Positions 37,002 to 37,662 of a DNA stretch of 42,309 bases are shown piece after piece. The DNA is from Deltaproteobacteria bacterium (GTDB lineage Bacteria > Desulfobacterota > Syntrophia > Syntrophales > UBA6807): contig DSDU01000001.1 in the NCBI GenBank assembly GCA_011056835.1, forward strand, positions 1 through 42,309. Direction: 5' to 3'. Positions within the stretch are counted from its first letter, which is position 1; each line of letters opens with the position of its first letter. The notes under the pieces were generated by a model. It was not told where the DNA came from and did not search any database. It saw only the letters and a list, made by a program, of their open reading frames with translations. The translations under genes were made by a program, and so were the position numbers.

Positions 37002-37077
37002 ATTGAACACTGTGAAAGTATCGAGGTGTGGTGCCGGTGAACATAGGGTTTTCTCTCCGTCCCCGAGTGAAAACAAC

Positions 37078-37107
37078 GAAGGCAGAGTCGAGCGAGACTC
37101 TGCCTTC
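37078..37107 (-). terminator. Probable terminator of HU
   Basis: GAAGGCAGAGTC (37078-37089) and GACTCTGCCTTC (37096-37107) form a 12-bp perfect stem with a 6-base loop, about 20 bases after the HU stop codon on the minus strand. The following minus-strand GTTGTTTTC is a modest T-tract. It may also stop transcription coming from the YIP1 gene. Confidence 0.65.
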
Positions 37108-37127
37108 ATGCCAGCCATGTCAATGGG

Positions 37128-37397
37128 TTATTTCACCGCTTCTTTGAGTGCTTTCCCCGGGATAAACCTGGGAACGTATTTTCCTTCAATGGTAATTTCT
37201 TCGCCTGTTTGCGGGTTTCTTCCCTTCCTTGCTTCTCTCTTTGATACTTTGAAAGTGCCGAAACCGGTGATAGTCACTGAATCCTTTTCCGTTAATGCCT
37301 TGGTTATGGCAGACAAAACACAATCAACCGCATCCTGTGCCCTTTGTTTACTGCCGACTACCTTGGCAACCTCACCAACCAGATCTCCCTTGTTCAT
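37128..37397 (-). CDS. hup: HU family nucleoid-associated DNA-binding protein
   Basis: The 89-residue protein is a full-length HU/IHF subunit: MNKGDLVGEVAKVVG helix, the VTITGFGTFKVSKREARKGRNP arm base with the conserved GFGTF and RxGRNP, then ITIEGKYVPRFIPGKALKEAV. The proline at the arm tip that kinks DNA is replaced by the ITIEGKYVP loop. HU binds and bends DNA without sequence specificity. GGAGG lies five bases before the ATG. The gene has an unusually long leader that carries a c-di-GMP-type riboswitch and a short upstream ORF. Confidence 0.97.
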   Translation of the reverse strand: MNKGDLVGEVAKVVGSKQRAQDAVDCVLSAITKALTEKDSVTITGFGTFKVSKREARKGRNPQTGEEITIEGKYVPRFIPGKALKEAVK

Positions 37398-37426
37398 AAT
37401 TCCTCCTTACTTTTTATTTTCTTTAA

Positions 37427-37462
37427 TCACAAAGCCACACAATCCACGTATGTCCTAATCAT
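37427..37462 (-). CDS. Possible 11-residue leader ORF upstream of HU
   Basis: ATG (37460-37462) with GAGGGG four bases upstream opens MIRTYVDCVAL and a TGA stop, 29 bases before the HU start codon. It lies between the riboswitch and the HU ribosome site, so it could couple the aptamer to translation. It is very short and may be chance. Confidence 0.3.
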   Translation of the reverse strand: MIRTYVDCVAL

Positions 37463-37537
37463 AGTACCCCTCAGAATAGAATGAGGACCGGTCGACCGCA
37501 GGATTATTCAAGGTGTGCCGATTTGACGTGAGAACAT

Positions 37538-37629
37538 GATCAGGCAACCCTGCCACCATATCCGCGATAACGGACTTAGGCCAGCGGCTTTGCGTCCCAC
37601 CCTTTCGATGTGGTTTGCCTTTGTCTGCG
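37538..37629 (-). promoter_or_regulatory. Cyclic di-GMP-I (GEMM-I) riboswitch in the HU leader
   Basis: Read on the minus strand, all GEMM-I landmarks are present: AAAGGCAAACC (P1a/P1b junction), a hairpin closed by a GAAA tetraloop (CCACATCGAAAGGGTGG), GGGACGCAAAGCC, then GGCCTAAG with its partner TATGG, which together form the classical 11-nt tetraloop receptor, and finally GGCAGGGTTGCC. Aligned on CAAACC, the base matching G20 of the Vibrio Vc2 aptamer is G, which favours c-di-GMP over 3',3'-cGAMP. A promoter at 37634-37662 places the transcript start at the 5' edge of the aptamer. The next gene on this strand is HU, about 140 bases on. Confidence 0.9.
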
Positions 37630-37633
37630 ATGA

Positions 37634-37662
37634 ACATTAATCCTGAAACCATAAGAAGTCAA
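37634..37662 (-). promoter_or_regulatory. Promoter of the riboswitch-HU transcript
   Basis: On the minus strand TTGACT (37657-37662), a 17-base spacer and TAATGT (37634-37639). Transcription would start near 37627, at the beginning of the aptamer. Confidence 0.55.

Follow-up and report, generated by a model that had tools for sequence, protein, structure and literature searches.

GEMM-I switches are known mostly for controlling surface, motility and electron-transfer genes. The locus described here has the same aptamer fold, tetraloop/receptor, ligand pocket and position at the mRNA 5′ end as the Vc1 and Vc2 riboswitches of Vibrio cholerae (c-di-GMP-I, GEMM-I, RF01051); the difference lies in the downstream gene, which here encodes HU. 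The GEMM-Ib cGAMP riboswitches of Geobacter have the same fold as well, but carry A20 where the present aptamer has G20. The ligand-contacting residues of Vc2 are G20, A47 and C92 (PMC4744006), and replacing A20 by G20 is reported to convert a cGAMP-sensing GEMM-Ib aptamer into one for c-di-GMP (PMC6456294). In two other systems c-di-GMP is reported to act on a nucleoid protein itself, CdbA in Myxococcus (PMC7156744) and H-NS in Salmonella (PMC10657408). Like these systems, ours would tie c-di-GMP to a nucleoid protein, but here the mRNA leader would bind c-di-GMP and the target would be HU. No GEMM riboswitch leading HU or another nucleoid protein gene came up in a literature search over titles, abstracts and term counts, incomplete in its coverage. 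The locus is an ordinary riboswitch class with an unusual target. If HU is indeed the target, an RNA would link c-di-GMP to the make-up of the nucleoid, alongside the protein-level cases of CdbA and H-NS, and the HU leader offers a directly testable case.

The aptamer is located on the minus strand of the 42,309-nt stretch of DNA that was analysed (the window). The initial annotation had described a complete GEMM-I aptamer with a GAAA tetraloop and an 11-nt receptor, and had proposed a minus-strand covariance-model search with RF01051. A cmscan of the window against Rfam bears this out, with a match at 37629-37540 (−) covering model positions 1-87 of 87 (73.9 bits, E 8.2e-13; the gathering score of RF01051 is 35 bits). 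Standard pairing holds at all 22 pairs of the model, to which a P1 of CAG/CUG may be added. The P2 and P3 helices, the GAAA tetraloop (37606-37603) and both halves of the 11-nt receptor (CCUAAG, 37580-37575, and UAUGG, 37560-37556) of the c-di-GMP-I class are all present. In the alignment, with our own placement of residue numbers on window positions through the Vc2 sequence, the pocket bases are G20 (37619), G21 (37618), C46 (37592), A47 (37591) and C92 (37544). The G at 37619 departs from the A20 that marks GEMM-Ib; since G20 is present, the expected ligand is c-di-GMP and not cGAMP. By sequence and by structure the aptamer thus belongs to the c-di-GMP-I class, and it is predicted to bind c-di-GMP. 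Twelve GGDEF matches in the genome make a c-di-GMP signal plausible in this host.

The next same-strand gene is HU, as the initial annotation had stated. It encodes an 89-residue HU-family DNA-binding protein (37128-37397, −; PF00216, 103.9 bits), with the start located 142 nt past the aptamer; the PF00216 match spans residues 1-89, including the DNA-binding arm with its RNPQTG motif. Upstream of the aptamer, a promoter is predicted at 37634-37662 (−) from the position of its TTGAC, with the −35 box TTGACT (37662-37657), a 17-nt spacer and a weak −10 box, TAATGT (37639-37634), from which we infer the start site. TTGACT lies 43 nt ahead of G20. Among 189 distinct GEMM-I loci (a few counted twice), 48 TTGAC matches fall 40-51 nt ahead of G20, and the rest of the 80-nt upstream stretch has few; because of this concentration, we regard the box as occupying the usual GEMM-I promoter position. 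The aptamer would lie just after this promoter, although the −10 box is poor compared with the Escherichia coli consensus and is absent from the consensus-scan list. As also noted earlier, no intrinsic terminator was found between aptamer and HU in a scan of the strand, and the scan gave no minus-strand promoter match in this interval. A strong intrinsic terminator (14-pair stem, T-rich tail) follows HU at 37076-37109 (−). With promoter, aptamer, HU and its own terminator in series, the locus would form a monocistronic unit. Upstream of the riboswitch lies a gene (38126-37956, −) whose 56-residue product carries a treble-clef domain of the zf_Tbcl type (PF13451, 87.5 bits).

The genome contains three other HU/IHF-family genes, two on contig C18 and one on C137, and the genome-wide aptamer search found no aptamer on those contigs. 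In a tree of HU proteins, which are short and leave some deep forks unsure, these three group with counterparts across the family. The window HU instead joins sequences from Desulfobacterales and genomes like them (98/93), a clade that falls outside the core HUs of its own family. Since the three other genes lack an aptamer, the riboswitch target would be an accessory HU. The proposed link to global DNA packing thus goes too far, and should shrink to control of one accessory HU. No GEMM-I aptamer was found near the closest sequence relatives of the window HU (L095-L106), and the idea that the aptamer is an ancient feature of this HU lineage was rejected on this ground. In the sole same-genus relative, which is 87% complete, neither the window HU nor the aptamer was found.

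The search for the same arrangement in related genomes, also proposed at the outset, yielded a second case. Approximately 228 GEMM-I loci with downstream DNA were compared, 59 from the first search of relatives, 80 further ones from the order (155 genomes, in the collection searched also the whole class) and 89 from a phylum sample of 395 genomes; this number refers to the matches listed, some of them clipped at contig ends and a few places excluded. Among the matches listed, HU is the next gene at two of these loci, the window and G002:C8, which belongs to another genus of the same family. The G002:C8 aptamer scores 79.1 bits and HU begins 155 nt after it. Its neighbours differ from those of the window, with a radical-SAM-like gene (named by eye) upstream, and its HU groups in the tree with another HU of G002 (98/92). 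Judged by the tree, the two HUs are not orthologous; therefore the GEMM-I leader would have joined HU twice, or one HU would have replaced another beneath an old leader. The two aptamers are each the other's third to fifth best match among 186, a similarity that does not decide whether they share common descent. Both have the rare pair A13:U94 (three of 59 aptamers), a feature noticed post hoc, and both retain P1, built from CAG/CUG in the window leader but from UUAG/CUAA in that of G002. Of the matches listed by a motif search of the 395 phylum genomes (GGRCGCAAAG and ATGAMNAAR, 150-210 nt apart), the window alone resembled a GEMM-I leader by eye. Elsewhere in the family, aptamers lead genes for secreted proteins of fibronectin type and for flagellar rod-like ones (all named by eye), and the genome of the window holds six GEMM-I aptamers.

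The annotated placement of a GEMM-I aptamer to control HU is thus supported: promoter, aptamer, HU and terminator would form one unit, and the aptamer-HU pairing is seen again in another genus, amid different neighbours. Our data suggest that the aptamer is probably part of a c-di-GMP riboswitch controlling HU at 37397-37128. That accessory HU paralogs came under the control of such riboswitches by more than one recruitment within a single family of bacteria is a possibility to which we give somewhat less than an even chance. If true, a second messenger would adjust the composition of the nucleoid by acting on RNA. The reach of an HU target is limited, since this genome has four HU/IHF-family genes, the window HU among them, and the aptamer-HU pairing was found in two genomes only, among the matches listed.

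For the switching mechanism, we resorted to folding of the leaders. The minimum free energy fold of the window leader contains a candidate anti-aptamer hairpin (37510-37552, −), in which AGGGUUGCCUGAU pairs with AUCGGCACACCUU in competition with P1 and P3. Its strength is not beyond that of shuffles, and the free energy gap that separates the free local fold from the aptamer-bound one does not exceed that of shuffles. A candidate anti-Shine-Dalgarno, AAUAAUCCU (37500-37508, −), is complementary to AGGA-A-UUAU of HU (37404-37396) and pairs in aptamer-constrained folds; the HU Shine-Dalgarno is AAGGAGGA (37401-37408, −). Enforcing the aptamer lowers the mean accessibility of the HU Shine-Dalgarno from.80 to.34, a drop that three of 100 dinucleotide-shuffled versions of the stretch in between also reach. 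In the G002 leader it falls from.18 to.05, which 26 of 100 shuffles equal. These are the only two HU leaders among the matches listed, and their expression platforms are different. The order of events would be as follows. RNA polymerase would start shortly ahead of the aptamer; bound c-di-GMP would lock P1 and P3 and block the anti-aptamer hairpin; and the freed AAUAAUCCU (37508-37500) would base-pair with both the Shine-Dalgarno and the start codon of HU, reducing its translation. Without ligand, the AGGGUUGCCUGAU/AUCGGCACACCUU hairpin would form, P1 and P3 would be destroyed, and HU would be made. Terminator-based switching was rejected, as neither the window nor the G002 leader has an intrinsic terminator between aptamer and HU. 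With no such terminator and a candidate anti-Shine-Dalgarno, translational control is the better guess, held with modest confidence; the folds hint weakly at the translational level and at the OFF sign, and a translational OFF mechanism, taken alone, is a tentative proposal that we would not favour to be correct.

The strongest competitor concerns this last step only, and leaves the riboswitch on HU in place. The switch may be ON, or may operate through transcription elongation, Rho or RNA stability and not by hiding the HU ribosome site, and we put this close to an even chance. GEMM-I-type switches are reported to work in both directions (PMC9262584), and Vc1, a GEMM-I leader with no apparent terminator or anti-Shine-Dalgarno, gives lower reporter at lower c-di-GMP (PMC4744006). 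The weakness of the folding support for OFF speaks for it as well, but neither leader has an intrinsic terminator and in both the fold trend is towards an occluded Shine-Dalgarno once the aptamer forms. Another route would run through a short ORF of 11 codons (MIRTYVDCVAL; 37427-37462, −), whose translation, governed by the riboswitch, would set HU expression by leader-peptide coupling. Its ATG at 37462 lies behind GAGGGG, a plausible ribosome site, which a CCUCA/UGAGG pairing could hide. ORFs as short as 11 codons easily arise by chance, and the G002 leader has no counterpart bearing a ribosome site. This mechanism was dropped for lack of that counterpart, and we consider it quite unlikely. 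The initial annotation had argued from this ORF to translational control; the ORF behind GAGGGG is there, but with no equivalent in G002 the argument is unsupported.

HU could instead be driven from another promoter, with the aptamer a relic or serving a lost gene, and the presence of HU at just two of the approximately 228 loci, among the matches listed, would agree with such chance adjacency. It is nevertheless unlikely, given the intact aptamer, the lack of a same-strand promoter match from aptamer to HU, and the recurrence of the pairing with a non-orthologous HU and different neighbours. A cGAMP sensor is conceivable insofar as Geobacter has GEMM-Ib (PMC6456294). Both HU leaders, window and G002:C8, have the c-di-GMP form G20, and a cGAMP-type aptamer at 37629-37540 was rejected on this ground as highly improbable.

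Several other riboswitch loci were observed. A weaker GEMM-I match of 45 bits in the same genome (L063; G000:C70:5921-6013, −) precedes a 202-residue predicted secreted protein; its A20 (AAAAGCAAACC) with C92 makes this match a candidate switch of the cGAMP type (GEMM-Ib). Identical GEMM-I aptamers are found at two contig ends (G000:C148:7062-7154 and G000:C196:31-123), which may reflect either an assembly break within a single locus or duplication of the leader. Tandem arrays of at least three GEMM-I aptamers occur in the relatives G078:C44, G089:C38, G073:C84 and G413:C2. The window also contains a TPP riboswitch (30939-30847, −; 67.6 bits), with a same-strand ORF (30783-30097) downstream.
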